Assembly (NCBI GenBank): GCA_030248065.1 | Contig: JASAMV010005808.1 | Coordinates: forward strand, 1-64,000 | Source: Rhynchonema sp. JSB1_4 | Lineage: Eukaryota > Nematoda > Chromadorea > Monhysterida > Xyalidae | Reading direction: 5' to 3' | DNA length: 64,000 nucleotides | Shown: piece by piece, positions 12,826-63,952 of the stretch | Layout of the letters: every line of letters begins with the position of its first letter | Numbering within the stretch: position 1 is the stretch's first letter | The notes under the pieces: model-generated | The model's input: only the letters and a program-made list of their open reading frames with translations | The model's database searches: none | What the model was told of the DNA's origin: nothing | Program-made: the position numbers and the translations under genes

Positions 12826-15800
12826 TTATGTCACCTTTTTATTGGACAGCGCTCAAATACTGCTATTTTATTCTATTTCTCAGTTGTTTTGTTCGTCAAC
12901 TTTATCATGAAACATACACATGTACGTGTATACCAACGGTTCCTCGTTTCTAGTCTTGCTAAGGTAGTTCATTCATGTAAATGACAGCCAGCCATCTGTT
13001 GCCGTAAATGGAGCCGTATCGGCACAGCGTGACAAGGTTGTGCTTTGTTACAACTTCAGACCACGGACACAGACGCCCTGAAAGTGAAGGGAAAACCGGA
13101 CAAACGTTCAGGTTCAAGTCTGAAGTTCATCAAGTACAACTTTTACCGACTGGACAGAAAGCTACCTAATTGAGTATTATGCGTATTGACTGGCTGCTTT
13201 GATTACCACGAATGAGAACGTCTGAGATGTATTTCTTGTCTGTCAAGTTGAGCGCCCATCGTCTTGCTTATATCTTTGTTCACAGTCTGCATTTTTTGTG
13301 ACAGTCCATGTGTGATGGTGCCCCGCAGCAGCACTAATATTTGACACGAATATCCGGAACCGCCAAACACGACGCAATATCCGGCGACGGAATATCCATT
13401 ACACTATACGTTGAGCATTTAGCATTTCACCTGGCAGCTCCAGCTGGCCATAACAGAGTGGACAGCAGACATAGTTTCATAAAATCTGTGTCTGATGGGT
13501 GTACCGGCTAAATTAGAGCGTATTTTATTCTGAAACACAAGTTATAAAAAATATGCATGCACTCAAAACCAGAAAAGTGTGCCAGGGTAGAGTCCGCAAT
13601 TGTAATTAGTTTAGTTTCATGTCGTTGCAGGTAAAAAAGGACCTCCAAGTCCAAAATACTTAATGCATGAAAAACTACCCAGTGCCAGTATGATATGAGG
13701 ATGGAGTGTATTAGTGCGCAGAGTTTTGCCGTAGTTGCTGACATATTCGCTCAGTTTAGTTGAGGAGGTTTCAAAAGGAATATTTTCGGACTCAAATTTT
13801 GTCGAGAATCTGCCTTTTTATCTGCTCACGAACAAATAAAATTCCCGATGTTCCGACGTCTCTGAGGGCTCCGGATATTCCGTCATAGGACTCTTGAAAT
13901 TGTTTCGTTATGATATGACCGCTCTAAGCGGTAATTATCATCGAGTAAGTATGTATATGTGCGTCGATACTTGTTTTCATGCTGAACTGTGAGGCTTCGT
14001 GCGTATTGGTACTGCTATTGTGCTCTCATCAAATAAACCTGTCTTTTGAACCAGCACAAACGATTGCGGTAGTATACGTCGCGGTCCGGCCCAACCGCAG
14101 ATATTTCGGTTGCGGAAGCACACAGGATTCGGCCCATATCTTTCTTGTCTGCTTGGCTGAGGCTTGGTTGGTGTAGCAGTGCAAATGGTCCGGGGACGGT
14201 ACCTCATTCTGCGACAATACCTCATGTGCGAAAATACCTCATGCTGCGCAGTACCTCATGCGCAAGTCGAAAAACCTCATGCTGCGACAATACCTCATGT
14301 CATATGGAAAAGACCTCACGTGAAATACCGTACACCCTCATGCAGTGTACTGGTTGCCATGGTAACCAAGGGCAACACGCACCTAGCAGTTGCACGTCAC
14401 GAATGCAACTGAATGTGGAGTTAGCGTGGGGTGTTGGTTTAGCTCGCGCCCAGCGGTGAAAAACCACACCGTTTGCCCCTCTATAAGGAGCTTGTTAGGG
14501 GCAATGTGCGTTTATGGGCTCTTGGTGTCCGTCTATTAGAAGCTTGATATACGGGCAAAGCGTCGGTTGCTACGTGAAGTAGACACTTGCCTGTCGTTCG
14601 TACTGATGTTTCATGGGCACGTTGACCAGTGTGGCGTGTTTCACAGATGAATGATACAAAGCACGATAGAATAAGCTGTTATAAGCGCACAGTACACCAG
14701 CGCGTGGTCACAAGTTGCCCCACTGAATGCAAAGGACCTTCAAAAGTATACCTTTCTGAATAGGTGGCGTCAAAAGGCGGTATCTAGCTGATCATGCATC
14801 CGTACTATGAATCAGCAAGGAATGACAGACAACAAAACTGTTGTTGTCGCATGCGATGGACGTGACAATTGCTGTAAATTGGTGCAGGATCCCAATGAAT
14901 CACGGTATAATGTATGTAGCATGGTATTGATACAATCTGAGGTGATGTGTTCAAGAAGATTTTATCGCTTCCAGCTAAAAATAAACAGTTATACCAATTC
15001 ACATTTTCGTGAAAAACACTGGAATACCAACAATCGAATGGCACAGCAAACGTCAGTTGATAAAGCAGTTTTTCTAGGGTAAAACCAGGTGCAGCACTCA
15101 AACAATACTGGATTCCAAAACTTTCGAAACTTTGAAACAGTACGTACCTCTGAACATGGGTGCCTACCTTGGTAAACGTGAGTTTTTTAACATTTTGATT
15201 GTGTCAACAGTAATTCATCTGCCCGCAATGCACAAAAGTAGGTTGCTAAATAAAGGAGATTAGTTCAGGCCGATTAAGCTAAACCATGCATTCGTGGCAT
15301 TAGCAGGCAAGGCAACCAAGAAATGGTGATCTCAGCCGCATCCAATGGGCATGATTTCAGCCAATAGAAATACAGCGGTCTCGTGTGCGGCAGTGATATA
15401 ATACAGTGCTCTCGCTATGACACCAGCTACATGCATACATAGGTACATACATACCATACGTTAGCTTGGTGAAACTTGCGTTTTTGCACATCATTATTGA
15501 ATTATCACACCAAGGGTGCAGAACTGTTTTATGCGGAAACACTTGCGAAACGTGCAACTTTATGCTGCTTTTTCACTCACTGGTGCATGCACACATGGAC
15601 TTCATGCATCCTTAACCAGTCTTGTGGTCACGTGAATTAACCAATAGCATTTTACCTTGCACCGTCATATGCGTCTTGACGAGCGGATTCGATTGATATA
15701 TGGTTTCAATGGCATGCGACGTACTGTTTTCTCACAAGCTTCTAAAGTTTCGAATGCGTGTAAATTATGACGTTCATCTTGTTGGAGGGTAGTTTGACCT

Positions 15801-17030
15801 GAATGCACAATTTACAGTTCACATGCTCCTTCGCAATCGCTGCAACCTTCAGCTTCATGTTTGCATGCTGTGAGTGCGTACCCATTAGACAAAAGTGCAA
15901 CCCAAGTTTGAGTTTCCCAACCCATGTTAACAGCACACAATCAGCACGAAACTGCTCGTTCCCTCTTAACTATGGGACGCTGAGACATGAGGTATTGTCG
16001 CAGAATGAGGTACAGGGACATGAGGTATTGTCGCAGAATCAGGTACTGCGCAACATGAGGTATCGCTCGGGATGAGGTATCGTCTCACAATCGTGCAAAT
16101 GACTCATGGTCGAAAAGCCACTTCACTCATTTGGGCTCATAAATTTTGGTCTTGATAAAGTCTGGGTCAACTCAACTGCAAAATATGTGTGTCGTACACT
16201 GCTAGCTTGTACTACTGCATCGCAAGCAGTGCTAACATGAGCAAGCTTAGATACTAATCAATATCAGTACAAAGCCTTAGCACAGGTTGCGAAACGGCTA
16301 ACAGCCCATAGGCGCAGGTACAGGTTCGTGACAGTAGCCGAATGTATGGCACATAACGTGCGGGCATGGTAGCCTTGGTAACTAACTATGGAGTACCGAA
16401 GCTTCAAAAGCTCCTTCAACGCCCCTGTTGTGCGTGAGGCTCCCCGATATATGCATGTTATGCAAGCCGTCGTGCGGCTGCTGCTGTAACGAAAGCAGAC
16501 AGCGGCCATTTGTGATTCCGAGTGCCGCAAAAAGTGCCTCGTTTTGTCGGATTATTTGCGTGTTCTAGCTCATTTGTGTACAAAAGCCATGGCTAAAGCT
16601 TTGTATCCTGCTGCTTCACAGGTGCACATTATTTTCTGAAATGACACCCATCCTATAGGTCCCATTATTGGCCAGTTTTCAATCATCACCGCTGCAGCTA
16701 CAGTTGTGCGCTGCTTTCCATACTGCCTGTTTGCTCGCCGTCAAAGAACTAGAATTTCAATGTGTGTTAAATGTACACAAAATCACAAATAAATCTGAAC
16801 GTTTTTGGCATGGATACGGCGCACAACACATTTCATATACAAGAGCGATCTTAGTCATTCGTATATGCACACGCCGTCGTTCAACATCGTATCGCGTTGA
16901 GCTGCGGATAAAGAATGCTCACTTTCATGCGCAATCAATGCCACAACTCAAATGTTTTTACGCCAAATACTGAGTCAAACCATATCCCGCAAGCAAAAAG
17001 CCCCAAAATCCTTCTGTAGTACGATCAAAA
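12826..17030. other. Intergenic, repeat-rich
   Basis: No coding exons recognised. One exact TGATGTTTCA decamer lies at 14604-14613. The main structure is the inverted-repeat element at about 14195-16090, described separately. The remainder is unremarkable A/T- and CA-rich sequence. Confidence 0.5.
14195..16090. mobile_element. 1.9-kb element with arrayed subterminal inverted repeats
   Basis: The left end carries at least six copies of a unit close to GCGACAATACCTCATG (about 14200-14310). The right end carries the same unit in complement, CATGAGGTATTGTCGCAG, about five times (15985-16085). Such mirrored subterminal arrays are typical of transposase-binding regions of DNA transposons. No transposase frame is visible between them. 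Confidence 0.65.
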
Positions 17031-18399: not shown

Positions 18400-19433
18400 A
18401 TGTGTGAGAGTACAATTGAGCTGTTGTTTTGAATATTATTCAAATTGACATTCTCAAGCTCTCCTGGAAGTCAGGCTTATATTAATGTCGTCAATTCTCA
18501 TCGTCAACTGAGCTCTAATGCCGCCACAACATAGTATGTACAGTATCTCATTCAAAGGTGTTTGCGTTGACAATTTGAGTTAACGACTAAACGATTAGCC
18601 GGAAGTCCACGAGTTTGTTGTCGTCTGTCTCTGAATTGCAAATCGGAATGTTGTTTGACTTCACATATAAACACAACTCGCGCTAGTCATCTCGTCTCGT
18701 TTTCCATGATGTGTAATTTTCTTCTCATCTTCTTGTCTCCTCCCTTTCTTTCCGCTGTGTATCTATCTCATAATCAACTTTGTGGTGCCGTTCCACTGTC
18801 ACGATCTAAGGTTCGTATTCAATGCTTTACTGCTTTTTCTCCGCAACGTTTTTGCATTTGGAAGTGCAACCGGTTTGGTGAAACTCTTGCCTGTTTGTTC
18901 TGTACAAACGATTTTGGAGCAATATTTTTTACTATCTTGTGTTTCTAAATTATTTCGGCTCTTTTTTATTCAGTTCGCTGTGTATATTGTAACTCTAATC
19001 CCATAATTTGTATCTCACATTTTTGTTTGTGCTTTTTGTCAAATAAAACAATACCGACAAAACGTTGAAAGTTTCATTCTCGGGGTGCGCGCGATTATAA
19101 AATTAGTGAGACCCTTATTCTCCATACCATGTGTGAGTGAGCACATTTCACAATGCAGTGATACAATCAATCAATCGATAGTTTCGAGATTACAAAGGGA
19201 ATACAACAGTCCAGGGGCATCGCAGCACAGTTCTTGGTTGTGGCTTAATCACTGGGGGAGGGGAGTGAAACGCAGACGGGTTCGAAACCGATACGGGAAG
19301 AACGTTACAGACAGAAACTATGAGTTATGCTTTCTATGGTAAAATGGTGTTCTGCTGTGATCTGACCTTACGGTGTCGGTCTCAAATCGTCACAGTGATG
19401 TTTCACAGGTGCTATATAATGTATGGCAAGAAA

Positions 19434-19954
19434 TTATTTCTTTCCAAAGCGGAGATACTCGTGCTTCCTCTTGCCGAACCGCAAGTACTCGTGCTTACGC
19501 TTGCCGAATCGCAGATATTCGTGCTTGCGTTTTCCGAAACGAAGATATTCATGCTTGCGCTTGGCCATCGCTTGATCCGGCTCAACATCTGAAACATCAT
19601 GTATGTGACTGACTGTGTTGGGTGTGAGCCTGATTTATCAAGGCGACGACACACCGTTGACATCCAAAAGTCCTTCGATTCCGTCGTGGACCAACTCGCT
19701 CAAATGACGCAACATCGCCGAGCTTTCGTACAGATCACACAGGAATTTCATCTGTTGCGCTTCGATACTGCAAATTGGCGTGGTGGATGGATTCGAAATT
19801 GACAATTGCGTAAATGGTACAGAACAAATAGAGCATGACGAAATGTAGCACACCTGTTATCGCCAGTCTGTTCCAGTTCCACACATTTGCTGCTCATGTC
19901 TGCCTGACAGACCACGATGTACGCCCCAAGTAACAAGGCTACGATTTTGATCAT
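19434..19954 (-). CDS. flp-14: FLP-14 neuropeptide precursor (KHEYLRFamide x4)
   Basis: This encodes a secreted FMRFamide-like peptide precursor. Exons on the minus strand: 19954-19854, 19767-19655 and 19588-19434, phases compatible, 122 aa. Residues 1-18 ([18 protein letters not shown]) form a signal peptide. A spacer with two Cys follows. Exon 3 encodes MAKR and then four tandem KHEYLRFG units, each followed by KR, with the last ending in KK and a stop. Gly donates the C-terminal amide and KR is the convertase site. KHEYLRFamide is nematode AF2, made by flp-14, and I recall four copies in C. elegans too. The second intron ends in TGATGTTTCAG, so the recurring decamer forms the acceptor here. 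The start is the only ATG giving a signal peptide. Confidence 0.96.
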
Positions 19955-22880: not shown

Positions 22881-23065
22881 AAGCGCTGTACAACCACAAG
22901 TGCCTAAACCGCACAAAATATGTTTATGCCTAAACGTAAAGTAAAGTGTAACGGCTAACAAGAAAACGGAGGTTTACATAACACAAAAAGGAGTACGGAC
23001 AAAACAGCGGTGAACAAAACAGTGAGGGTCAAAACAGCGGGTCGGAAGGCAGCAAGTTTTCGTCA

Positions 23066-23125: not shown

Positions 23126-23848
23126 TGCTCTCGCAAATACCTATGTAAGTGGCTGCTGTTTCGAAAACCGCTCCGTGACACCACAAGAATGACAAACATA
23201 CATAAGGGTACTTTGTTGCTGCAGTGCATGTGAAAAACAGAAAAGCGACAAAAGTAGTATGCATAAGCAACTTTGATTGGATTTGATTACATATTGGATC
23301 AGCACAATTTTCACAATCTCATCAAAAATGTCTTTTGTCAGAACCGGGATTGTAAGATATTGCATTAGGTAGCGTGAAGCACAACGAAACTATTAACGGT
23401 CATCACAATTGTGGAAAACTCGACTAAAAAAACTCAAAATTAAAAGTACTGTTGTGGGTGAAGAAGCGTATGTTTCAGACAGATCATGCAGCATGTTGCA
23501 GTATTATACGCACCACTACAGCAAAGCAGTGCGGATGAAACGCGGATGAAAACAATCACTTGATAAAATGCACAAATTTCATCAATTTTACAGCAGCTGA
23601 TAAATAAGGACGTGTGACCAAAGCTGGCGCGATGTGGAAACAGGCTATTTTAATTTGAAGTGATGTTCAAAAGTGCCGTACACAGCATTCCACCTGTGGC
23701 CATAAACCGTACTCAATGTTTGGAATCAGGGTTGGAGAAGAGATGAAAACTGTGTGCTTATCACGTCATCGCAATTTTAATTGCCATGGGAGCTTTCCAC
23801 GCGGTAATGTCTGTACGTGTGAACTCTGAGCCACCACACCAAACGTAT

Positions 23849-23930
23849 GCTCTCGGAAGGATTCGAACATCCGGTCTCCCAGCCACCAGGCCTGGACATC
23901 CAGTTGCTCTACCAACTGAGCTACGGGAAC
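23849..23930 (-). pseudogene. Degenerate tRNA
   Basis: The minus strand reads as a tRNA with a seven-base acceptor stem (six of seven pairs: GTTCCCG with CGAGAGC), a canonical D arm and A box (TAGCTCAGTTGGTAGAGC) and a T loop TTCGAAT. The T stem has a mismatch and the anticodon stem does not form properly: ACTGG has no partner at the expected distance. The extra sequence CCAGGCCTGG suggests rearrangement. I cannot assign an anticodon. Confidence 0.55.
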
Positions 23931-24480: not shown

Positions 24481-24523
24481 GCCAAAACAAGCTAATATTC
24501 GTCCGTTTCAGTGAACACCTTTT

Positions 24524-45682: not shown

Positions 45683-48197
45683 ATGAAGCATCTGATCTGT
45701 GCATCCTTCGTGATCTTCGTCTATGCTTTCACATCAGTTTCTGCCGATCATTGTGCAGCACACAATTCTACCTGTGAAACGTGTCTGCGTCGCTCAAGTG
45801 TTGGTGATGTTTCAATTTTAATGACAATATAATTTTAAGACTGAATGGTATTTTGAGAACTTTCCAAATAGGGTCCCAAGAGCTCTAAGTATTTGGGAAA
45901 CAACATTCTTGACAAAAAGCCGGATTTTCGCACTTTTTCCGAATAGTGCCCCTGGGGCTCTGGACGGAAGACTCTTTGCGTGTATGTGTATCCAATCGAT
46001 TTCATTTTGTCAGTGTTTCTGGTGCGACACCACATCCACGTGTCAAGGTGTGACGGCAAAGGACAAGCTCGGCTGCGCCTTCATTCACAGTCGATGGGGC
46101 GTTTGCGGATGTGAGTCGGAGGGGTGGGCATGCTGCCACAATTTTGATACTAATCCGATAGCAAGTACACCAGTAAAGAAACACAAATCAGGATCAAACT
46201 TGGAGATCAGAATGGCCACAATCTGTCTCCTCGGTCACGTGACTTTCAGGCCGAATTCACAACGCAGCGCGTTAGCGTGTTGCTGATTAGCGTGCACGCG
46301 TTTGCATTCACAATGGAAAATTGAAAAAGCGCGTTAGCGTGCGCGCTTATCAGTGACACGCTAATGCGCTAACGCGCTAAACAGCAAAACGCGATTGCAT
46401 TAGAAATGTCACGTGCACTAGAAAAAGATTTTTTCCCATTCTTTCCAGTACCTCTACTCGCGCTGCTCATCATGGCCGGCATCGGTCTGCTTCTATTCGT
46501 GACCGGTGCATGTTGTGTGTGGTGCAAATGCAGACGATGTTGTCGTGAGCGTCGACAAAGAAGGTTGGGATTGACTTGTGCCTGTTTCAGCAAGCACATT
46601 GCACCGGTCTCGGACTTGGAGGTCGCCCCCAGATTTACTGTTGCTAACCGGGTGACCTAATTATGAGCAAGCGTGGTGAAAGTGCCTATCAAACTTTCGA
46701 CCAACTTAAAAATGGCTCATTACAATGGTCACAGACATGTTTACACTTGTCGTCAAGTTTGATACCTAAAAATATCGGTGTTTCTGATCCAAAATCTGCC
46801 AAGTCGTATACCGACCCAGAACAGAGCGTTTGACGTAGGGCTCGCGCGGGAAATTTTTTTGAAGGACGGGAAAAATTGGGGAAATTTCCCGTTTTCCCCA
46901 AGGGTCTGGGAATTCTTACGGGAAATGGAAGTTTGGAATTTTGAAGGACGGGAAATGTCGCGGGAAATGGTTTTCAGAATTTTGAAGGACGGGAAATTGC
47001 GGGAAAAGGCCTATTTCCCGCGGGAAATGCGGGAAAACGGGAAATTTCCCGCGGGAAATGGTGTTATTTCCCGCAGATTTCCCGCGCAAAATAGGAATTT
47101 CCCTCAAATTTCCCGCTGAAAATAAGAATTTCCCGTAAATTTCCCGCGGAAAACATATTTCCCGCCCTAGTTTTTGGTTTGATAAGTTACTAACGCAATA
47201 GCTGGCCGCTATAAGCGTTCCTTTGATGTGTTAAAAAGTGGATGACAAGTCCTGTTGTCTGTTGATGTAAACTGGCAATGTAAAAGAAGGGCACTCAAAG
47301 ATAAAGTTGCCCTTTGGAGGATGAACAACGACTGTATAACAGTATTTACCAAGAATTCAGGCCTATTCATGCTGAGACACGTTCAAACGAGTGTTCTAGT
47401 TACACACACGTGCCATTAAATCCGTGAATTTCTTGATTGATCGGTTCAGTGCGTGAGCCGCTGCTAACTATAAGTTGAAAAATGCAGTCTAAGTCAATTG
47501 CTCAGTGTCGTGATCTTCATGAACAGGTCTGAAAAAGACAAAAAGTCTATTTTCAACCCATACTAAAGAAGAAAAGCCAACAAAAGATGATCTGATCGTT
47601 TCGATTTCCCGTTTCCCGCGGGAAATCTCACGGGAATTACTGACGGGAATTCCCGCGCGGGAAATGGTCGAAGGACGGGAAAAAGAGGGAAATGGCCGAT
47701 TTCCCGCGGGAATTTTCAGGCACTATTTCCCGCGGAAAATGCCACTATCCACAATATTTCCCGGGAAACGGGGAAGGGAAATTTCCCGCAAATTTCCCTC
47801 CCTGCCGCGAATTTCCGCGGGAAAAAAATTTCCCGCGCGAGCCCTAGTTTGACGTTCACTGACAGCCACTGTGCGTCTTGTGCAGCATTTGATGTTTCAA
47901 CACACGCGTATATAAAGCTTTCGAACGCAGCTATGAACGCGAACGATTCGAAAACGAACAACGCGCCGAGGCACGAAGGGCAGAACGGATGGAACGGACC
48001 GAAGACAGACAACGAACTCGGGACAGACTCAGGGAACAGTATGGTTGGTCACGTGTTTGTTATCAGGCCCAGCTTAAATCTTCTCAACGATCAAGCACTT
48101 TGCATATGGTCGACAGGGCGATGCTTTTCTGTTTTCAGGTATTCCCGCACGAACTCCGAACAACTATGAACCACTGGACGATGCGTCTCAAGGATGA
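45683..48197 (+). CDS. PTTG1IP/PBF-like single-pass PSI-domain protein
   Basis: The human family member PTTG1IP is a small type I glycoprotein that binds securin and traffics between membrane and nucleus. Exons 45683-45799, 46014-46110, 46449-46563, 47931-48043 and 48139-48197 join in phase to 166 aa (human about 180). In order: a signal peptide (MKHLICASFVIFVYAFTSVSA), a Cys-rich PSI-like domain (CAAHNSTCETCLRRSSCFWC) ending SRWGVCG as in the human protein, one TM segment (LLALLIMAGIGLLLFVTGA), a Cys/Arg-rich juxtamembrane stretch (CCVWCKCRRCCRERRQR), then the charged coiled coil RFENEQRAEARRAERMERTE and a short tail ending PNNYEPLDDASQG. Intron 1 starts GTTGGTGATGTTTCA. Intron 3 contains a hAT-like element. 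It is convergent with ADP-glucokinase. Confidence 0.88.
46836..47846. mobile_element. hAT-like non-autonomous transposon with TTTCCCGCGGGAAA arrays
   Basis: The terminal inverted repeat is TAGGGCTCGCGCGGGAAA at both ends. It is flanked by an exact 8-bp direct duplication GTTTGACG (46828-46835 and 47847-47854), the duplication length and end type of hAT transposons. About 300 bp at the left and 250 bp at the right consist of close-packed TTTCCCGCGGGAAA palindromes and half-sites. The middle (47180-47600) is ordinary sequence with no transposase. It lies in intron 3 of the PTTG1IP-like gene. Confidence 0.88.
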
Positions 48198-48772: not shown

Positions 48773-51742
48773 TCATAGCTGCGAATTCATCTGTTCGTGT
48801 TGTGCGTGTTGATGCGCTGCCGACGGGGGGGCGCCCATGCCAAATCGATAGAATTGTGAATAGATTAGCCCGGCACCCGCAATCGCGTCCGGCACACCCA
48901 CCGTTGAGATCGGATATTTGCACACCTGAACGCAGCACAAACGCGGGGGGTTATCACATCTAGCAAGATGACAATTTACGTTTGTGAGGATTTTTGTAAA
49001 ACGCGTTGCTGCCTGATCCATAAAGCATGCAGGCCAACAGTGCGCGAGTCCTGCGCTTGACGGATCAGGCCAAGCCGTTGAAAGCCAAACCATTCTACCG
49101 TCAGAGCACGCAAACTAAACCGATGAGCATGTGAAACATCAACCAACCAGCACCGGTGTGAACACGAACACAATGTCGTTGCGCATCCACGAAGCCAATG
49201 GACTGAAATTGGGCAGATTTGTATTGCCGCACGCCAACTGCGGGATCAACATCAAATGTTGTCGTGCGTAAAAATCATATAAAATACCATATGAATACTG
49301 TGGTAACATGGCTTCTGCTTTACAAGTCTATGAAAAAGGATCGGCTGCCACTCACTCGTGCGCATTGAATTTGTACATTCGACCGAGCTCCTTGTCGAGC
49401 ACGAAATTGTTGGCGATCCTCAGATCAACCGCACCGGTATCGATGTGACTAGAGAGTGTGCCACTGCCACATGCCTGTCGTACGGCAACACGAGCACCGG
49501 CCGCCGCTGCTGCCGCCAGATTCGACCAGTCCTGACCTCGGACGGCCTGAATTAACATTTAAACCAATCCTCACGCCAACGACGGAGGCAGATTTGGAAG
49601 ATCGGATTGTTCAAACCCGGCCTCATGCTAAACCAGATGAGTAACGTATGTACTACCAAACCAACAATGATGTGATAAGTGAGTGAATGGAAGTGCACGC
49701 GTGTCAGGCGTTTGCCGTCCTTCGAGCCACGTTCATGTCCGAATGTCTCCAGCAGCCAATTGATCATCTCGACCGCTTTGTGCACGTGAATTGTGCCGGC
49801 GCGAATCTGAAATTTTTCGATATATCTTTTTCTGCCACAATTTTGAAATGTCCAAGTATGAACATGAACTCACGGCCATATTATCGAACGCGTACGGGCC
49901 TTCGCCGACGAACGACAGAAACGCGAGGTCTTGTTCGTTCACACCAACAGAGTCCATCAGAGGGATCAGCTGAAAAAATCAATGAAATTGCAGAAAACTA
50001 AGTATTCCTTTGGGCGCCCTTAGATATAGTGGAAAATGGAAAGGAAAAAATATTCTATGTTCAAGTTTTCCATTTCCATTTTCCAATATGACTAAGGGCA
50101 TACTGGAAAATCAAAAATGGAAATGAAATAAAACATTTTCTGCAGCAGTCATGTGACAAAAACTGTCAGAAACTGCGAGAAATTTAGCATATTGCACAGC
50201 ATACCCGTTCCAGCAGCATTTTGACGTAGTCCGGTTTGTGAATGCTGCCCAGCTGCAGATGCACGGGTGTGGTGCGCGGGATCTGCACCAGACTGCGTCG
50301 GATCATTCGGATTTTCTCCTGGAACAACTCCGATGTTTGATGACCCAACAGATGCAGACCGGACAGCACGACCAGGTCGGGCTTGATTGAAGCGATTGTG
50401 TTGAAGAACATGTCGATCACGATAGAACTGCCGCTGCAAATGGCTGATGTTTCATACATGTACATACGCTATGACGATGTATTCAATATAACATCATTAC
50501 CTAACATCTACCAGCTGTGAACTGTCATACACTTCCTTCAAACATCAGTCAACCTGAACAGATCGTGCGACGCGATGAATCGACTGGACAGAGGCGCGAC
50601 GAATTCGCCGTAGATTTGCCCCATTTTGTAGTCCATAATGATGTGCAGTTCGTCCTTGGCGATTCGCGCCGTGTTCTCTGTCCGTATGCTCGGGTGCAAC
50701 AGCGCCTTGGCTCGAGGCCCGATCGGACCAACCAGTGTGATCTTGGGGAAAAAATCGATATTCGACTGAAGTGAAACATAACATCAACAAATGGATTCAC
50801 AATGATTCACCTCGAGGTGTGGCTCGGTCTCAATCATTTTCGTCGCCAGCAGAGCGGCGTTACCACCAATGTGCAGCTGAAAACAAGTAAGCGGTTAAAA
50901 TACATAATTGAAGCGGCAAGATGCGATGTTATTCAGGCACTTTTGACACAGTTCACAAACGACAGCGAAACATCAGTGTTGAGGTCATGTTTGAAATGCC
51001 GAACAAAAATACGGCGCTTCAGAACCAGAAAAGCTGTCGATTTACCGGAAATGGACTCTGGAACCACGATGAGGAACAAAACAACTAAAATATCCGGCAG
51101 TCAGACCCTCTAGCAGCGAATCATTCCCGTGGCCGTGATCAAGCAAGGTATTCAAGGCTGAAGTCATCCCAACCGCGTGCGGCAGTATCTCGGCCTCCTT
51201 GAGCACGGCGTCGAACAGTTTCTTGTCCTGAATGAATCGTTCGGTGGGCGCGCCCTCGACAAAATAATGCGTGAACGTCTCGGACAGCTCGTCGGCGTTG
51301 CTGATCGTCGCGTGACTTTTGGCCGTCGTTGACGTGACGTTCATTGATGCCAACAGATTAATGCCCGACACGATCACGTCGACGTTCGAATTGAAACTGA
51401 ACCAATGCATTTATTCCCTGATTTTATGTCTTTTCTCAAACTTTTGCTGTCGGTTAGAAATGAGAAATGTGACGGCCACCAACCCGACGACAATATTTCT
51501 GACTTGTGACGGCGGAGCCTGAATCACTTTGGTCCATGATTCGACGATCGCCTGTTCAATCGTGAACGACTCTCTTCGCTTCACGTCCATGTGTCTGTGT
51601 TGATTTTCGACATCGTCACAAAGTTTCAGACCAATCAAATCACCAGCAAAAAATGCGCAAACCTTGAATACCAATAGGTCAGGCTGGCCACGATCACCGA
51701 CACGTGCAGCCAACTGTGCTTGTTCACCGTGTACAGAAACAT
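48773..51742 (-). CDS. ADPGK: ADP-dependent glucokinase
   Basis: ADPGK phosphorylates glucose using ADP, in the ER lumen in animals. Exons: 51742-51663, 51594-51484, 51396-51174, 50876-50811, 50765-50554, 50433-50205, 49969-49874, 49806-49666, 49546-49384, 49314-49148 and 48925-48773, about 546 aa (human 497). An N-terminal hydrophobic anchor (HSWLHVSVIVASLTYWYS) is visible. Family landmarks: SNVDVIVSGINLL, HIGGNAALLATKM, DLVVLSGLHLLGHQT, VNEQDLAFL, RVHFHSLTYHII, AAGARVAVRQAC and VFVFTPVL with VCKYPISTV. The usual GxGD catalytic turn reads GVPD here, keeping the Asp. The exon 9 donor (49384) was chosen to keep phase; a donor at 49355 looks stronger but breaks the frame, so this junction is uncertain. 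Intron 10 begins GTTGGTTGATGTTTCA. Confidence 0.93.
50008..50135. mobile_element. Second copy of the GGGCGCCCTTAG MITE
   Basis: This repeats the ends and the TGGAAAATGGAAA core of the element at 5220-5563, in an ADP-glucokinase intron. The copy is shorter and its right end is degraded. Confidence 0.65.
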
Positions 51743-53020: not shown

Positions 53021-53845
53021 CATTATTTCATTTGTATAGTTTCTTTGAACTGTTATCGCGCCAGAACGCAGACATGCTCTGCGGGCCGGGCCGCAGAGCC
53101 CGTTTTGTTTCTTTCAGCCAGGCCAGGCTTTCAGCACCACGAAAAGCGACCAGCGCTGACGTGGCAACGCAGATCTGGACACCGAATAAAGCCCCGAAAG
53201 TGAATGAAACATTCAAATTTGCATTCTCACTGAGCTGCAGAGCGCTGTGACGTGTCACCAAAATTTTTGCGTGGTTCTCCAACCTCATAAAAACGGCAAC
53301 TTTTCATTATGAAATGCAGCTTAGCCTGAGTGCTTGACTATTTATTCTTCATGATCAATTCGGCATTTGTTAATAGGAAGCTTCTCGATTTTGTCCACAT
53401 CACAGTATTCTATCGTTCATTCATAGCTCATTTCACAGGACTATTAAATGTGCTGCTGCAAGTGACTTCCATTTCGACAGCTGGCGCTTGTTGTTTGACT
53501 TCACGCCCGTTTCTCGTACAAAAAAGCTGCAGCCAAATTATGCGTGGAATTTTATTTGCCATGCATACGTACACACATGCCAATGCTAATGTATAGACAT
53601 GTTTTGCACGTTTGCTGCCGCTGTTGGCGGGCCGTCATGCTCTGCTGTCAAGTCCATGTCAGCACAGTTCACCCACGCAGCACGTGTTTTCCGAGATCAT
53701 AAACCATGTCGTCAATCTACCAAGCTCATACCTTTCCCGTTGCCTATCCATTATTCTGCTGCATATGTTTCCCAACACCGAGTCATCGCATGCGTCGAGC
53801 ACCAGTGGCCAGTCCTCAGGTTCGATGATGTTTCAGTTGAACGCA

Positions 53846-55222: not shown

Positions 55223-55800
55223 TCAACTTCCAAGCCAACACCCAACATTCACCCACCACCTTTGGCGCACCAAACATCGTGACCGGATGCAATGCATGGT
55301 GTAGTCGTAGTTCGCCAGTGCAAGCAAATAGCAACCGGTCAAGCCGTTGTAACACTGATCGTGCACTTTGCAGCAGCTGAATGAGTATCTGAACTTTCGT
55401 CTGTGATAATAACTATAGCATGTTCGACTACCCATCGGTTTCTCGCCTTTCCCAAAAGTACCCAAGATGTAATAGCGCTGGGTGACAGGGACTTTGCTAG
55501 TTTCGTCTTGTTTCCACAGAGACGGGCAGGGCAGCAGCACATCGTCAGTGCGAATGCACCAGATGCCTGGTTGAGTCTAAAACGGATGACTTGATCACAG
55601 CTTTCTTATTGGTTTCAACGGACGTGTCAACAGCATCCAACGGCTGACCATTACCACCAACACCACAGTAATTGGCATAGTTGACGTATTCGAATGCATT
55701 GCGTTCAGTTACACAAGCAATCACGTCGCCGAGATTCCATACGACGTGACAACGAGACGGGACCCAACAGACTGATGACGATTAGAATCGACACGCGCAT
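55223..55800 (-). CDS. Secreted phospholipase A2, possible frameshift
   Basis: Secreted PLA2 hydrolyses the sn-2 ester of phospholipids using Ca2+ and a His/Asp dyad. The first exon (55800-55625) has a signal-peptide-like start (MRVSILIVISLLGPVS). In another frame it then encodes WNLGDVIACVTERN and the Ca-binding loop YCGVGGNGQP. A donor at 55624/55623 joins in phase to an acceptor at 55377, and the second exon opens with the active-site motif CCKVHDQCYN. Beyond CIRSRC the frame runs to a stop at 55223, but family Cys spacing is lost, so the true 3' exon(s) may differ. The signal peptide and mature domain are off by one base with no plausible intron between them. This could be a sequencing error, an upstream signal exon or a pseudogene. 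Confidence 0.75.
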
Positions 55801-56484
55801 TTGAGGGAATAGGATGGGCTATGTATGTCTACGTGACTCGAGCTTGTAGTTGCAGGAAAAGGCGTGCGCAAAGCACAAGTACGTTAGATAATGAAGCCGT
55901 TCGGGTGTGAATTGTGTGAGCAATGTTTGGGCTGCTCTTTGGATTTCTGTAGTTTGTGATTCACCGAGCACCCTATTGATGAATTGAATGGCTTAGCACT
56001 TGAAGCTTATGGCTTTAGGATCACGAAGTTCAGTTGCAATACGTAAACGTCCCAGTCACTACACCGAGTCGGAATGAGAATTTGCCTGAGCACATGGGAA
56101 CACATTACGGTAGTTAGGTACGATAGTCCTGCAAACAACCCCACAAACTTCATGGCTGCTAAGCGGTGAAGGTCAAACAATAGGTGATGTTTCACGCATT
56201 GTACACTACGGCAAATGGTAGTGTTGCCTTGAGAGTCACACGGTGTAGCCAAGTCAGGTCAGCAACAAAAAGTCAAATTTTGCAGATTCTCGTTTTTTTC
56301 ACATGCACAAAGAAAAACAAAAGCGGCAATGAAGCGTGAAAATCGTGTTTTCATCGCCTGAACACTTTGAAATAGACTTGGTAGACTTCGCTTGGTAACC
56401 AAACCTACATAGTTCACTGACAAGTCTATTCCTTGACTCTACAGTCGTGGTTAGGTGACTGATGAGCTAGAGCAAAGCAGCAAC
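55801..56484. other. Divergent intergenic region
   Basis: Between the phospholipase gene (minus) and the lectin-EGF-channel gene (plus). One decamer TGATGTTTCA lies at 56185-56194. No exon recognised. Confidence 0.45.
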
Positions 56485-59400
56485 ATGATGTTTCATTTGC
56501 TGATCTGCTCACTATTCTGCGTGACCAGTGTAATCTGTGACCATGGTATGTGGGTGGAGAACAATGGTTGGTGTTATACGAATGACATGGGCACCTACAA
56601 CTACTCACAAGCCAGCGGCGCATCGACCTGTGCATCGTATGGCGGATACCTGATGACCATCGACAGTGACGCAGAGAACACTTATGTCGTTTGTGAGTGG
56701 CTGCTTGTTGTTGGTCTTGCACAGATTGCAACAAACACCAATTACAAAAAATCGGTCTTTTAAACAACTAGAAGATGTACTCAAGGCAAAAAGACCGCTA
56801 AATCGTAGGACTTTTATTCCAATACAGTTCAAAAGCAAACAGTTCGCAAGTCAGTTAACCCATTTTCAAGTAAAATGGATTGGCGCGCCCGCAGAAGGGC
56901 GGAAATTCCGCGCGCTATGCGCGTGCACTGGATGAAATAACTTAAAAAAACGGAACAACCACTAGGTAAAAAAAATAACTTTTTCGATTTGGCCCTCCTT
57001 TGGCCAAAAACTAGACTACCGAATAATTGCCCATCAATGCGATGTGCAGTCCATTTCCATTTCAGCGTGGGCAGCATCACGTGTTACACCACCGAGTGTG
57101 TGTTGGCTGGGCTACACCGACACGGCGACGGAGGGCACGTTTCTCGACCCAAACAACGTGCCGAAGGGCACCTACGACAACTGGGCTCCAGGTGATCTGG
57201 CCGATTGTACAATTGGTCGAATTTGGGATAACCTCAATGGACACAATCCCTTGAAACATCAGGTGAACCGGCGAACGACCCGACCAAGAACTGTGTCGGA
57301 ATGAACTGTCTGACAGGTGAATGGCTGATGGACTACTGCACACCACCTGCGGGTCAGGGTCGCACGGCCATTTGTAAGAAGGCACCGCTCGGCCCCAGCT
57401 GTCCCCCGACGCCTATCTATTGTCTCAATGGAGGTGACGTCATTGTTGTTATTGTTGTTTCGTAATTTTTTTGAGAATTCTACCTTAGACGAGCGCAGAT
57501 GTTGTCACCAGAGGGAGCAACTTTTACACTGGTCGAAATTGCAAAGCTAAATCCGACTCGGCCCTGATGCCAGCAAAGTGCACAGCAATGACAATGTCAA
57601 AGCCGCACATGAGCAGGTACTTGTACGCCCGATCCGTTGAACAATTGTGCGATTGTGTGCACATGCGCCGCCGGCTGGGACTCGTTGTATTGTGACATTG
57701 AGATTGACGAATGTCTGTCAGCGCCCTGTCTCAATGGCGCTGTGTGTACGGACTTGGTGGCCGACGTACAATGCACGTGTGTGCCAGGATACACTGGTTC
57801 GGTTTTGGGTTGCTGACTGGACAGGGGTAAAACGATCCATGTTTCTATAATACCAGTGCTGCTCTGCACTCAAGTTCGTCTTCAACTGCCAGCTATATGT
57901 ATAATTATACATTATTTTCCTCACCTGCTGTTTTTAGACTAATAGTACTGTCGTTAAATCAAGTCGTCAAATATACTCGTCAATAATACATGTGATTTGA
58001 CAACAAGATATGACGACTTGATTTGACCACAGTACTGCAAGCCCTGTTTTTATCCGCAACACGCTGGGCGACCGTCCACAACAAACAATGTCTATTCAAT
58101 CACACATGTGAAACATCACCCGGCCAGATTTCTTCTGCTCTACCGACATCGACGAATGCGCATCCGATCCATGTGTGAATGGCGCGACGTGTGTGGATGC
58201 AGTGAACATGTACACATGCACGTGCCCCAGTGGCTGGACAAGTGTGCATTGCGAAATCGGTAAGTTGATGAGTGGCACACAATCATAAGAGCTGGAACTG
58301 TCATCAAACACTTGCGATCGTATAACCAAACTTTCATTTGGACAGTACTTTACGAGGCAGTCGGCCACACTGATTTTGACCAGTATAAAAGTTGTTAACC
58401 TGTAGGTGCACCAAATGAACTTTGAAAAAGCTGGTCAAAATCAGTGAATCCTGCCAACTGTGTCGCAAGATGTGATCGAAACAAAAATTGCCGCTGGCGT
58501 GTGGCCAGTGATCGCCTTCGAATTTGACACGCATTTATTGTGACACACAGAGGTGGACGAATGTATCAGCAATCCATGCGACCCAGCGGCGACCTGTCAG
58601 GACCAGTTCGATATGTTCCTCTGCATCTGTCCACCGTACGTCACGGGCACAATCTGCAATGAAAGTTGGTGTCGGGTTATTTACACTTGATGGCCAGCTA
58701 ATGTGTAGGTGGCTGATGTTTCTGCTTCGATACCAGAACTGATTTGTCCCACGAACTAAACTGTTTCAGCCGACTGGAACGCGCTCGTTGGCAACGCAAA
58801 TCTGTCGGTAAGGCAACAGTACGTCCATCTTTTCTGCACATAGATGCAGTCAGCGTGTGATGTTTCAGCAAGTGATCCCGGTCATGATGGAGCCGGGCAA
58901 TCAAGTTGATTCGACCATTTTCGCTGCGGCCGCTTTGGACGAACCGACACGAATGCGTGCCAGTTGGGATGAGACCATATTCGACTGGGCCACCTATGAA
59001 GGACGTGCCTTGGACATGAAGTATGGAGGACACGACTTTTTTTCTTGTGGCTTGTGTTTATGTGGTCAACGCATATCGTCAATGTCCACGCAGCCGGGCC
59101 GCTGGTATAGGCGTCAATGATGATCGCCGGGGTAGCCAGCGTGCTACATACGTTTTGTCTATGATGTCATAACGAGCTCATTTAGGGCTGCTTTTGGTCC
59201 GTGATATCGTCGCAGCAACTACACCCAGCCGGCCCACTTGCATAATGTATCAATAGTAACACACGCGTGCTGTCAATTGGCTAATCGGAACAGCTGGCTG
59301 ATGATTTCAGGAAGGATTTCCACAAATGGAATGACCCAGCGCTCGGCAATTGTTTCACATTCAACCATCCAAATCTGACGCGGACGTACGTCGGCAGACG

Positions 59401-61828
59401 GCCGGGACGCGGAAACGGTGACAACTGCATAATCTGGCCACCACATTCAGTGCCCGAATCTTGGTTCCTTCGGAGTTTCAGTATTCCACAAGTTCAGAGA
59501 AACTGTGGAGCTGGAAACTTCTCGGAAACAACTCAGAACCGATTCCGGATACGTTCTTCTCACCTTTAAAAACGGGGACTCTGAAAGATTGTGTGGCGGA
59601 TAAAACAGCGATGAGAAAATAGCGGGGAGAAACAACTGTGGAAGAAACAGCGGGTGCGAAAACAGGAAAAAACGGCGAGTGCATTAACAGCGGCGAATAA
59701 AGCAGGCAGTGCGTCGTTCCGCTGATTTTCTCTGCTATTTTTTCACCGCTCTTTCTTCCTCGCGTTTTTTTCCAGCGCTGTTATTGTCCCCGCTTTTTTC
59801 TATCCCTGTTTTATCCGTATACCCCGACCTAGAAATAAACAAGAACCGGGTGGTGACTACGAGCAATTCTTATTGGTGTTCAAAAGGTCGATGTTTTCAA
59901 CATTGTGCGACTTGCCGTTTTCAGGTCTGCTTGCCTCGCTGCAAACGAATGCACACGATTATGCACCGTGGGTACTGAGTGCCGGATATCGTGTCTACAT
60001 ACACCACCGATACGATGGAGTGTTTTTGGAGAGTGTCGGCTATTTCGCTCCTCCCGCTTTCTATACTACGTTGTCGACCACAAAGGTATTGGTCGCACAA
60101 TGACTTTAAAGGAATTGGTCAACTTTTTTTCCTGAATCGTAAAGAGGGACAGTGACGGGGCAATGACGTTGCGTTGCGTGATCGCACAAAAAACACGTAG
60201 TAAAGAGAATGTTTCAGACCTGCGGCAACGCGGTTGATCTGCTAGATTATTTTCAGCTAAAAATGTTTTGTGAGAATCACAAATAGCACAGTAGTTAAGA
60301 GTGACTGAACGTGAAAATCAGGATTGATTTTGATGAATTCTTATATAGCCATTGTGCTACCAATACCTATAGTTAGCCACGACTGTGGTTGTGCAAACTG
60401 TTGTTTCAAATCGTACACTTCAGTACGAGGTATTTTGTGATTGTGAGTGTTTGTGGTGCGTTCATGCCTCACCATGATTCTTCATGCCACAAGCCACAGT
60501 CATTGTATTTCGTTCGTCAGCGAGATTCAGTGTTTCAGGAAGTGTACGACCGATTGAACAAGCCGCATAGCGAATGCGTCAACAAGCCGAGCGAAGTGAA
60601 CAGCTACTATTACACCGGCAACTATTCGTCCGATGTTCGTACTCAATCGCATTCACAATACCCAATCGATTTATGTTCACTGACCGACTGACTGCATCTT
60701 GATGCGCAGGCTTGTGTGCGCAGTTGCTACCAAGACGAACTGGTGAAGAGCGAACAATGTGGCTGTATGGACCCCCGTTTTGCCATTGACGCCACCCAGC
60801 AGGCCTGTCCACTCACACAACGTACTACGTGATGCGAACATGGATTTGCAATTGAAACATGCAATTGATTTCAATATCTGTAAATGTTCCTGTTTAGGAA
60901 ACTGTATTGACGGCTTCACGCAGAGTAACAACGACCCGATCAATTGGGCCGACTGCAATTGTCCCCTGCCGTGCCAGTTAGTCTGATGTTTCATTGGCAT
61001 GTGTGTGTATTGAGACTGGAAAATGAATCATTGACGGTAATGCAGGTCGACTGAGTACAGCGCGCGCGCGTCGAAGGCGATGTTCAAGACAGCCGTATGT
61101 GGTTGATTAGTTCCCCTGATGTTTCAAGTGCATCACGTATTTGAACATCTCGCACAGGTGACCAAATGTGGCTCGAACTCGACGTGCAGTACCGAAGTGC
61201 ACAATGAACGTGTGATGGTCGAGGTGTATCTGGCGTCATTGACCTATAAGCGATACATTGAGACGCCCAAGATGGGGGTACGGTAACACATTGGTTACGG
61301 TAGCAATGGTGCATGACAATGCCTTTGGGAGAATTGTTGTCAAACACGTTGCCTGATCTGATAGGTGTTCACGGCACAATAAAGCGTCAAAGATGCACGC
61401 GTCCTGTGCACTTTGCCGAGACGACGTGTTTGAGCAAAAAATTCTGCCAAGTGTTGTCAGGGTTTTCATCCACACCCACAAAGCGATTGGGCTCATCATT
61501 CGACACATGACACTATCACAACACATGAAACATCAGCCAAGAGGCCTGCAGTTTCACTGAGCGTAAAACAATGCGGATCATAGCCCCTGTGACATGATGT
61601 CCGGCGTTGTCCTTGATGTTTCATGTTGTGTTACAGACTATCGACCTGTTGGCACAAACGGGTGGCCTGCTCGGCATCCTCGCCTCCGTTTCGGTGTTCA
61701 CAATGTCCGAATTCGTGGTTTTGGCTGTTCGAGTCGGCCTAGCAGCCGTGAACGGACTCACTTGGAAATTCTTTCGTTCGTTCGATTACGACCAAGCACA
61801 TGCATACATGGCGACCACCCAGCGATAA
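56485..61828 (+). CDS. C-type lectin / EGF / DEG-ENaC fusion (EGAS-like)
   Basis: DEG/ENaC proteins form Na+ channels; the C. elegans EGAS members add EGF repeats. Sixteen exons join in phase to 698 aa: 56485-56692, 57066-57191, 57263-57433, 57617-57796, 58128-58259, 58551-58664, 58770-58807, 58869-59020, 59311-59385, 59833-60085, 60539-60634, 60710-60821, 60898-60976, 61046-61094, 61158-61277 and 61637-61828. In order: an N-terminal hydrophobic signal ([18 protein letters not shown]); a C-type lectin domain ([35 protein letters not shown]); three EGF units ([36 protein letters not shown]); then DEG/ENaC ectodomain motifs [36 protein letters not shown] and CNCPLPC; and the pore/TM2 segment [20 protein letters not shown]. 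No standard TM1 precedes the ectodomain. The start ATGATG lies within the TGATGTTTCA decamer. Confidence 0.88.
57945..58040. repeat. Intronic copy of the GTCGTCAAATCA inverted repeat
   Basis: GTCGTTAAATCAAGTCGTCA is inverted as TGACGACTTGATTTGACCAC with a centre of about 40 bp. It is related to the repeat at 24358-24480 and lies in the intron before the second EGF exon. Confidence 0.6.
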
Positions 61829-62455
61829 AGTGATAACGACGGCATGTGGCTCAAGATCAATTGAGGATTGTTCATCCATGCTGGTCTTAATTGAAAGAAA
61901 GTGAACATTGGATGATCCAATCCCACCTCCTCCATGTATCATAATAAATGACATACCAAAAATGAAATTGATTTTTCTTCCAATCTGATAACGGTAGCCA
62001 AACTTCATATCAGAATCGGAGTTCACTGCAAATGCGGTATACCTGCATGTTGTGTAGCTTTGAATTGTCGAGCGTTCTTGTAACTGAAAATTCAACACAA
62101 ACTGCCCGAAGGATTTTGCGAATCGGTGAACAAACGCGAGGAAATAACTGTAACACATTTTATACAGACACAAGTAATAAATAGAGTAATAGAGATAACA
62201 GAAAACAATGATATAACAACACAGATAAAAGGGATAACTTTTGATAACAACAAAAGACCCGGATAATAAACAGCGATCGAAGAGAAGACAACAAAACGGG
62301 GACAAGAAAAATAGAAATCGCTTGTGAAAATCGAGCATGGCAATAAGCAATGCCCAAAACAATGAACAGAGAAGTGCAACAAGAGAAAAACTGTGAAAAA
62401 AGAACGAAACGATGTGCAATGTTTATGTACAAAATCAATTGCTGATTGCATGCAG

Positions 62456-63952
62456 CTAATCCCCAGATGCGGTAGTGCCCTCATTGTTGCCAGGTATGGT
62501 CCATTGCAACTGCCTACCGCGTTCATACATTTTCTCGAGCGCCCCTTTGAAGTGTTCTGGTGATTCGGCGTTCAATTCTAGGTACTTTTCGTACAACGCC
62601 AGTGCAGTGCGTGCATCCTCAGCGCTGTCGTGTGTGTCCTCCTGTATGGTCGCACCTGAATGAAACATCACCCAGTCAGCGCGATCAAGCTTGGTTGTGA
62701 GATCGCATCTGGACTGATTACATGACTTTCTTGAATTAACGATGTGTGAAGAAGTACGAGAAGAAGAAGTACAACTGATTTCGACCAGCGATGATGGGTT
62801 TAAGTTTTTTATATTGGGCCGGGAAATAATTTTCACGGCGGGTAAAACCAGTGTTTGAAACTTTAATTAATTTTCTTATCAGTCTCGGTGCAAACAGTCA
62901 ATTAGCAAGAAAAGCACAAAAACTGGTGAGGGATAAGATCTCTAATTTCTACTGTAGGTCTAATTGCAACTTTTCTACCACCAGTCATTGACGCTTGTTT
63001 GTTAGAGTGCGTGGTAACCGACCGAGGAAATGCCAGGCGAGGAAACGCAGCGACACCATTCGATGACGTTTCATGTGATACAGATCGACCGTGTCACGCA
63101 CTTGCTCCTTCGGCACCTGCAACAAACAAGTCGCTCATGCAACAAACAAGTAGGTAGCTCATCACACAATCTTTCACTGAGGTACCACACTGTTCATATC
63201 GATCTGAGCAAAAGTGCGATACGGACAAAACAGCGGTGGAGAAAACAGCTGCCTTTCAACAGCACAGGTCAGTAACTAAAAGATGTTCAGGTGACACAGT
63301 GTAGGGTTCAGAATGCTGTTCAACAGCATAAAAACAACAGCGACCCGTATTGTTTTTTCCACCGCTGTTTTGTCCGTGCACCTCACGCACCGTATCAATG
63401 GTTAACATCAACTCACGATCAAATTGAGCATTCGAAAGTCGCTGCGCAGCCCGTGACCGACGAACACCACGCCGCGATTGATCAGATATCGCAGTTTGAG
63501 ATAGACGGACTTGAGGGTGGTCAGATGTTTGCTGGACACCGACGGGTTCAGGTCCTCCGGCTCGATGCCGCTGAATTTCGTCAGATAGTCGGCAACCTGC
63601 AAACAGTCGGAATAAAGAGCGAGCGAAAACGACAGTTGAACAAGTAGGGCAAAAGTTATCCAGTTTAGTGACGCAACCGATAGTCTGCTATTTTCTGCTA
63701 ATTATGTTCTTAATTTTCGCGGGATCAATAGAACAACAGTCAGCGAACCTCTTCCTGCGATGTGATATAGTCGTCCATAAACGGCGTGCCTTTCATTTTG
63801 CCCTCGCTGAAAGAATGAGAGCATATGAAATTCGAGACACATACATACTGTACATAGAACCAAAGCTGTGTGCTGTACACTAACCCCCTGACACAGGTCA
63901 CGCGGGCCACAGTCATCCCGGCACCACTTTTGGTCTTGTCGGGGTCACCATC
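62456..63952 (-). CDS. PAN2: PAN2 deadenylase, C-terminal exonuclease region (partial)
   Basis: PAN2 is the catalytic subunit of the PAN2-PAN3 poly(A) deadenylase in the cytoplasm. Only the 3' part is present, in five exons: 63952-63885, 63806-63749, 63596-63417, 63116-63023 and 62655-62456; the gene continues past the window edge. The 199 residues match the DEDD exonuclease domain: [60 protein letters not shown] (second catalytic Asp), [15 protein letters not shown], and [20 protein letters not shown] (the final HDxxEDA motif). A short tail ends [10 protein letters not shown]. The last intron ends TGATGTTTCATTCAG. It is convergent with the lectin-EGF-channel gene. Confidence 0.93.
63218..63380. 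repeat. Hairpin repeat (CGGACAAAACAGCGGTGGA ends)
   Basis: The left end GGACAAAACAGCGGTGGA is inverted as TCCACCGCTGTTTTGTCC at the right, spanning about 160 bp within a PAN2 intron. A single related end occurs at about 22993 and degraded versions near 59600-59790. Confidence 0.7.

Follow-up and report, generated by a model that had tools for sequence, protein, structure and literature searches.

Why does a single ten-base word, TGATGTTTCA (the decamer), recur so often in this stretch of the Rhynchonema sp. JSB1_4 genome, and what could it be doing beside splice sites? The window, by which we mean the whole 64-kb stretch that was analysed, contains 23 exact copies (12 on the plus and 11 on the minus strand), located at precisely the 23 starts given in the preliminary description, where 0.37 copies are expected and the maximum in 100 dinucleotide shuffles was 2. 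The chance figure of 0.12 given there was too low, which leaves the observation unaffected. The genome-wide excess that had been proposed as a check was found when the 203.9-Mb assembly was counted: the decamer is present in 37,556 copies (18,829 forward and 18,727 reverse) compared with 345 (172 and 173) for the reversed word, a 109-fold difference. Near copies are also in excess, with one-mismatch words totalling 54,815 genome-wide compared with 15,548 for their reversed counterpart, and with the 30 one-mismatch words summing to 67 against approximately 43 expected in 249 kb (sums made by hand); each one-mismatch word averages approximately 1,800 copies in the genome versus the total for the exact decamer. 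It is clear that the decamer observation is real.

The copies in the window are given below, where d5 and d3 denote the number of nucleotides separating the decamer from the donor and the acceptor, respectively. The flp-14-like gene was identified by eye from its KHEYLRFGK repeats.

14604 to 14613, plus strand: mid-position in a predicted 869-bp intron
19396 to 19405, plus strand: outside predicted genes, just beyond the flp-14-like gene
19590 to 19599, minus strand: sense; makes the predicted acceptor (TGATGTTTCAG) ahead of the flp-14-like gene's final exon
34710 to 34719, minus strand: integrin-beta intron, sense, acceptor 6 nt on; junction aligned with six nematode homologues
35101 to 35110, minus strand: integrin-beta intron, sense, acceptor 5 nt on; homologue alignment
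39878 to 39887, minus strand: integrin-beta intron, sense, d5 = 5; donor GTGGGT at 39892, placed by eye
40166 to 40175, minus strand: integrin-beta intron, sense, d5 = 16; donor GTACGT at 40191, placed by eye
40339 to 40348, minus strand: integrin-beta intron of 76 bp, sense, donor 11 nt earlier
45805 to 45814, plus strand: GTTGG directly ahead; weakly supported predicted gene
47890 to 47899, plus strand: weakly supported predicted gene
49132 to 49141, minus strand: ADP-dependent glucokinase intron, sense, 6 nt past donor GTTGGT
50445 to 50454, plus strand: ADP-dependent glucokinase intron, antisense, acceptor 11 nt on
53826 to 53835, plus strand: upstream of or inside the VKOR gene start (acceptor TTTCAG or coding ATGATGTTTCAG)
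56185 to 56194, plus strand: predicted intron at the tentative 3' end of the VKOR model
56486 to 56495, plus strand: just upstream of a lectin/channel-like model; possibly coding (ATGATGTTTCATTTG, signal-peptide-like), by eye
57252 to 57261, minus strand: antisense, TGAAACATCAG at a predicted acceptor
58109 to 58118, minus strand: antisense, mid-intron in a predicted gene model
58858 to 58867, plus strand: sense, makes a predicted acceptor
60984 to 60993, plus strand: sense, predicted donor 7 nt earlier
61117 to 61126, plus strand: sense, predicted donor 22 nt earlier
61526 to 61535, minus strand: antisense, in the same predicted 542-bp intron
61614 to 61623, plus strand: sense, predicted acceptor 13 nt on
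62661 to 62670, minus strand: PAN2 intron, sense, acceptor 5 nt on

A self-trained gene finder assigned 20 of the 23 copies to introns and one to an exon and left two outside genes, in agreement with the earlier claim that most are intronic. Protein alignment showed that two gene-finder junctions were wrong, those at the copies starting at 39878 and 40166, and these were corrected by eye; the predicted read-through at 39878 is an insert without counterpart in the integrin homologues. For the 40166 copy d5 would be 1 if the predicted donor were used. Reading by eye, we note that the copies at 56486 and 53826 might belong to coding sequence (ATGATGTTTCA at a candidate start). The calpain-7, TMEM33 and four-pass genes had been described as free of the decamer, which holds in general but fails for the copy at 14604, and the heterogeneity between genes in the window (1 of 36 introns versus 18 of 88, p = 0.013, counts entered by hand) is suggestive only. 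A structure-database search with one long open reading frame from the window gave no match.

All eight window copies in introns whose junctions fall in alignments with homologues (integrin, ADP-glucokinase and PAN2) have a splice site no more than 16 nt away, compared with 1.8 expected (p ~1e-6; lengths and distances entered by hand), and seven of them are in gene sense. We also compiled a checked set of 15 intronic copies, chosen by eye, whose exon junctions fall inside protein or domain matches. Fourteen of these are at most 17 nt from a splice site, where 4.1 are expected, and 14 are sense and one antisense, which bears out the proposed intron-end enrichment and argues for an RNA-level splicing signal, where UGAUGUUUCA at no more than approximately 20 nt from either splice site would be read by a protein or by a complementary small RNA. 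The wider gene-model sample comprises 101 copies from loci chosen for holding the decamer, with 71 copies in 137 kb of predicted intron (52 sense and 19 antisense), 24 in 67 kb of predicted exon and 6 in 44.7 kb of predicted intergenic DNA; this provides a rough check on equal intergenic density, which had been named beforehand as a refutation. Sense copies within 24 nt of a donor make up 15 of the 101, compared with 10 of 274 shuffled words (p = 3e-4), and pieces of the decamer head the 7-mer lists at both intron ends; both results favour a splicing signal, and the gene-sense placement near splice sites exceeds composition, as that of a splicing element should. Sense copies that themselves make an acceptor (TGATGTTTCAG) number 15 of 101 versus 4 of 38 for permuted TGATG+TTTCA words (p = 0.59), and a simple acceptor signal was rejected since such acceptors are only as common as composition predicts. 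The decamer had been said to sit both after donors and in acceptors; the donor-side excess was recovered, the acceptor-forming copies do not rise above composition, and the bigger surprise is the donor-side rather than the acceptor-forming copies.

Because a gene-sense position close to donors and to acceptors was confirmed, the splicing signal stays a candidate, and of the two explanations first offered, introner footprint and splicing signal, it is the one that we keep. We still regard it as rather unlikely, in view of the antisense fraction among the predicted-intronic copies (19 of 71), of other copies outside introns, far above chance, and of a match to a promoter core (see below) that would have to be coincidence. 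Complementarity to snRNA was not found either in the stretches compared: none of five 7-nt words occurs in the bodies of U1 (three copies) or U2 (two copies) or in the first 30-90 nt of U5 and U6. Splicing regulatory elements that lie in introns close to donors and acceptors are well known, for example the Fox UGCAUG sites, and like these the decamer adjoins exons in gene sense; it differs in its ten bases, its tens of thousands of copies, its sizeable antisense fraction and its promoter-element match. If the splicing role were true, ten-base signals adjoining splice sites in such numbers would amount to a splicing code of a new kind.

Introners are likewise present in many copies in introns, and the high intronic copy number of the decamer and its frequent location at intron ends would fit traces left by introners, introner-like sequences or other mobile elements. 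The flanks speak against this. The 100 aligned copies share only a few flanking bases, the predicted host introns vary widely (55 to 1,564 bp), and antisense and non-intronic copies exist. When 125 flanked copies were compared by BLAST, alignments spanning the decamer were confined to a handful of duplicated regions (inside or among loci L015, L021, L025, L026 and L027, the U1 loci, and L052/L053), and no homologous intron bodies or ends, such as introners would share, were found. Since the copies are without long common flanks, introner elements are unsupported, and we consider this origin highly improbable. Among duplicates below 90% identity the decamer is kept in three of six comparisons (hand count, with the U1 promoter pair, L043 with L038/L042, scored as changed), which is weak support at best for conservation between duplicates.

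What the preliminary description overlooked is that the decamer is the core of a promoter element upstream of the U1, U2, U5 and U6 genes of this genome, to which it is identical or differs by 1-3 bases. In the 33 snRNA hits that were read, the best upstream match departs from the decamer at no more than one position in 14 and at no more than two positions in 27, compared with 59 and 236, respectively, of 3,000 random 75-nt stretches from the window. The core lies at a family-specific fixed distance from the RNA start, as in a SNAPc proximal element (PSE): 34-35 nt for U1 (seven hits with a clear core), 37-38 nt for U2, 35-36 nt for U5 and 46 nt for U6 (four copies). The U1 core is T[T/G]ATGTTTCA in 7 of 10 and exact in L043 and L046; for U2, TGATGTGACA is found in four and TTATGTTTCA in one of eight read, for U5, TGATGTTACA in five and TTATGTTTCA in one of eight, and for U6, TGATGCTACA in four of seven read. 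Thus, a SNAPc/Ruby-type promoter motif is indicated. The dispersed copies differ from the SNAPc PSE in two respects. The commonest U1 version, TTATGTTTCA, is barely dispersed (2,024 copies versus 1,728 for the control), and intronic recognition therefore differs from snRNA recognition. Moreover, the intronic copies are without a downstream GAATGAC/GATAGACTACC-like block: no conserved downstream block was seen across 100 aligned copies, Rfam found no snRNA in the window, and neither window nor aligned copies combine an snRNA gene with a second block downstream, as a PSE does.

The account that we tentatively prefer, at slightly less than an even chance, treats the decamer as a half-element of SNAPc-type promoters and as the equivalent of the Ruby motif of nematode piRNA genes, with a subset of copies making Piwi-bound small RNAs. 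The copies, scattered genome-wide and chiefly intronic, would act as half-element promoters; a subset would recruit RNA polymerase II, short transcripts would begin approximately 35 bp downstream of the decamer, and these would give rise to the Piwi-bound small RNAs. SNAPc binding at intronic copies, transcription and piRNA production are what we infer from the resemblance to known piRNA loci: a GTTTC core akin to the genome's own snRNA element, predominantly intronic loci (71 of 101) and a Piwi-clade Argonaute, the Piwi-clade exons at C1663 matching Drosophila Piwi at 2e-28 versus 5e-9 for AGO2. A similar exon layout is seen at C3368 and C4595; a Piwi_N model search gave no match anywhere, the controls likewise being without match, and is uninformative. 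According to published work (PMC6436959), the Ruby motif descends from the snRNA element; the intragenic piRNA loci of Pristionchus lie in introns in 97% of cases, and detectable 21U-RNAs come from only 20% of the motifs located in predicted active domains. Dispersed intronic piRNA genes with the motif have been published for Pristionchus and Plectus.

The simple piRNA explanation is weakened because we found no fixed-distance initiator, a strong sense bias and tight proximity to splice sites. Around 105 copies, also when split by class, neither YRNT nor T was seen to peak at any fixed distance, where the published motif peak is 42 nt from the 21U site; by a hand estimate about a fifth of copies at most could carry an initiator within any 5-nt zone, which would leave room for no more than a minority of active copies. 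The same 105 copies showed no GC-to-AT profile, and the C. elegans core CTGTTTCA shows no excess (17 versus 21 expected). Pristionchus loci are approximately equally sense and antisense to the host gene, compared with 52:19 in predicted introns and 14:1 in checked introns here. That the bias reflects avoidance of piRNAs antisense to host exons found no clear support in a hand count (21 sense and 5 antisense at d5 below 58, otherwise 31 and 14). The piRNA reading does not predict that copies should cluster less than 18 nt from splice sites, and the intron-end and gene-sense preference is an extra, unexplained feature. The piRNA reading is further disfavoured because near-splice sense copies are without the G at -1 (8 of 37) and because two U1 genes (L041 and L045) and one U6 gene (L071) are without such a core. 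Once the near-splice sense copies are set aside, the remaining 64 of the 101 have PSE-like flanks, in favour of the promoter account, with G at -1 in 56%, C or G at 0 in 77% and C at +11 in 47%, and the deficit of G in near-splice sense copies relative to these (p = 8e-4) favours a splicing signal.

The same promoter-core match and flank preference would also suit a SNAPc-like or other DNA-bound factor sitting at the decamers without piRNA output, for instance as a polymerase-pausing, licensing or chromatin element beside exons. The missing initiator would fit this, and a sense, exon-edge placement could suit an effect on the host polymerase. Such a role is purely conjectural, motifs of this type act as promoters in the nematodes where they are known, and we consider it quite improbable. 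A broader proposition, possible though doubtful in our judgement, is that one near-exact 10-base word marks splice sites genome-wide in this deep nematode lineage, either as a long RNA-level splicing code or as a splice-tied SNAPc promoter element that would link the transcription of small RNAs with splicing. Whether the copies act as piRNA promoters or in splicing, their sense-strand position at intron ends can be put to the test.

The Ruby motif in its P-type form, known from Pristionchus pacificus and also from Plectus sambesii and P. murrayi, resembles the decamer in its GTTTC-containing core akin to the snRNA element, in being dispersed and largely intronic and in the presence of Piwi. 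Here, unlike there, we find a little-degenerate 10-mer, TGATGTTTCA, in 37,556 exact copies, which is sense-biased, crowded at splice sites and without a detected initiator, and the strong extra 5' motif described for plectids was not seen in the 100 aligned copies. Published numbers are 3,082 motif sites for P. murrayi and, for piRNA loci, more than 15,000 in C. elegans and 25,883 in C. briggsae; copies of a motif and loci are different things, and the comparison is not like-for-like. Among the literature matches listed, no description of an intron-end, sense-strand motif placement was apparent, and in PMC6436959 the word "splice" is confined to the reference list. If the decamers were piRNA promoters, an snRNA-derived motif with dispersed intronic layout may predate Plectus. 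A one-gene integrin tree places this nematode outside Plectus and Rhabditida, on a long branch flagged as unsure, and its integrin is approximately 49-53% identical to those of most nematodes listed and 42% to that of Romanomermis.

The preliminary description listed 23 starts of the decamer TGATGTTTCA in the window, and all 23 proved to be exact copies, with no others present and 0.37 expected. An exact count over the whole assembly (203.9 Mb in 5,747 contigs, the window being contig 3559) gave 18,829 forward and 18,727 reverse copies, compared to 172 and 173 for the reversed word. With up to one mismatch allowed, the genome-wide totals were 92,371 for the decamer and 15,893 for the reversed word. 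A regional sample of 248,875 bp, made up of the window and 20 regions selected for containing the decamer, contains 101 exact copies where 2.2 would be expected, and 67 copies with one mismatch where the expectation, summed by hand, is about 43; the decamer is the top-enriched 10-mer among words found in at least 8 of these 21 sequences. Also enriched and dispersed in the same sequences are palindromes of the ATGTACAT type and the word ACTGACGATG, the latter with 14 copies where 0.7 would be expected.

The decamers were placed on models from a self-trained gene finder, only some of which are confirmed: the calpain, VKOR and integrin EGF models by Pfam, while the integrin beta model is backed by homologues and the ADP-dependent glucokinase and PAN2 models by solved structures. 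The names TMEM33, flp-14, four-pass and lectin/channel-like are putative, given by eye or in the preliminary description. By these models, 71 of the 101 decamers fall in introns (52 sense, 19 antisense), 24 in predicted exons, some of them weakly scoring, and 6 between genes. The window copies at 53826 and 56486 both give ATGATGTTTCA at a possible gene start codon.

For quantification of splice-site proximity we used 15 decamers in introns whose junctions lie inside an alignment or a domain match, eight from the window, where copies within unverified gene models were excluded, and seven from loci elsewhere in the assembly, picked by eye among the matches listed and with distances taken from the gene-model table. 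A first tally of 17 copies, 15 of them no more than 17 nt from a splice site, included two that were removed because no domain spans their junction.

Decamer copies outside the window
L012, 7959: checked
L012, 6279: checked
L012, 4169: checked, mid-intron
L022, 4556: checked
L028, 1404: checked
L010, 1359: checked
L009, 754: checked, domain edge
L019, 9567: removed, antisense, 30 nt from acceptor
L016, 3815: removed, sense, 11 nt

The enrichment at intron ends that had been claimed is borne out, as 14 of the 15 checked copies, all but L012 4169, have a splice site at most 17 nt away against 4.1 expected (p about 1e-9), or 12 of 13 against 2.8 expected (p about 2e-9) when two acceptor-forming copies are omitted, the outside-window copies being in both cases among the matches listed. 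With the same restriction, 14 of the 15 are in gene sense, the antisense copy being window 50445. Since the decamer and the acceptor consensus TTTCAG overlap in sequence, composition-matched words served as controls. The donor side of the proposed pattern stood, sense copies lying 24 nt or less from a donor being commoner for the decamer (15/101) than for shuffled decamers (10/274; p = 3e-4), but acceptor-forming sense copies showed no excess over permuted TGATG+TTTCA words (15/101 versus 4/38) and thus match composition. A splice-proximal signal acting at the RNA level would account for this placement of the near-splice decamers, but it leaves unexplained both the antisense copies and a match to snRNA promoters, and we consider it rather unlikely.

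That match was scored as the best decamer match in the 75 nt upstream of the RNA start in 33 snRNA gene hits of this genome, with the U2 hit L037 left out.

Upstream decamer matches with at most one mismatch, and gap from core to RNA start
U1: 7 of 10 (two exact); 34-35 nt
U2: 1 of 8; 37-38 nt
U5: 6 of 8; 35-36 nt
U6: 0 of 7; 46 nt (four copies)

At most one mismatch was found in 14 of the 33 hits and at most two in 27, including two sub-threshold U6 hits with different spacing, compared to 59 and 236 of 3,000 random 75-nt stretches of the window. No core was found in the upstream 75 nt of U1 L041, U1 L045 and U6 L071. The U6 hits L069 and L070 (contigs G000 C478 and C933) match only about the first 59 positions and have a promoter core like that of full-length copies.

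The snRNA proximal sequence element (PSE) of SNAPc differs from the intronic decamers in that many U1, U2 and U5 copies have a second block, GAATGAC or similar to GATAGACTACC, some 5 bp downstream of the core, whereas the aligned intronic copies have no such block. In the 64 of 101 decamers that are not both sense and near a splice site, the flanks resemble those of the PSE, with G at -1, C or G at 0 and C at +11; the 37 near-splice sense decamers do not share the -1 G (p = 8e-4). Genome-wide, TTATGTTTCA is barely dispersed (2,024 versus 1,728) and TGATGTTACA slightly (1,549 versus 477), and the intronic decamer therefore seems to be read with a specificity of its own. A GTTGG donor precedes 5 of 15 near-donor decamers, compared to such a donor in 32 of 377 decamer-free introns (p = 0.009). 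GTTGG also stands before the core in U1 L038-L040 and U5 L059, and the element's own flank may therefore act as splice donor.

The nematode piRNA promoter motif is the best-matching known system (PMC6436959, PMC6317315, PMC9683057), and that the decamer is a promoter element of this type is a plausible, if tentative, reading. Counting against it are the absence of an initiator peak at a fixed distance and of a pausing profile across 105 decamer copies (compatible only with a minority of active copies), the sense bias and the crowding at splice sites. No single reading yet covers the promoter match and the splice-site placement together.

Piwi-domain exon hits number 54 in the genome; those on contig C1663 belong to the Piwi clade, and most other loci examined look AGO-like by eye. 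Contigs G000 C1663, C3368 and C4595 have alike Piwi-domain exon layouts, the Piwi clade being established for C1663 only. In an integrin tree the species adjoins the group of Plectus and Rhabditida without belonging to it (joint group 98/94), in a single gene and on a long branch whose position the tool marks as unsure. Outside Clade V, Piwi was found only in plectids, according to Beltran et al. (PMC6436959), and the Piwi-clade exons of Rhynchonema may therefore widen the known range.

Other features of the window
47014-47027, 47045-47058 and 47612-47625: palindrome TTTCCCGCGGGAAA, three copies (0.00 expected)
14209-14226, 14282-14299, 15986-16003 and 16019-16036: 18-bp word present four times, twice direct and twice inverted, which suggests that an inverted-repeat element lies at about 14.2-16.0 kb
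23848-23930, minus strand: tRNA match, barely above the Rfam threshold
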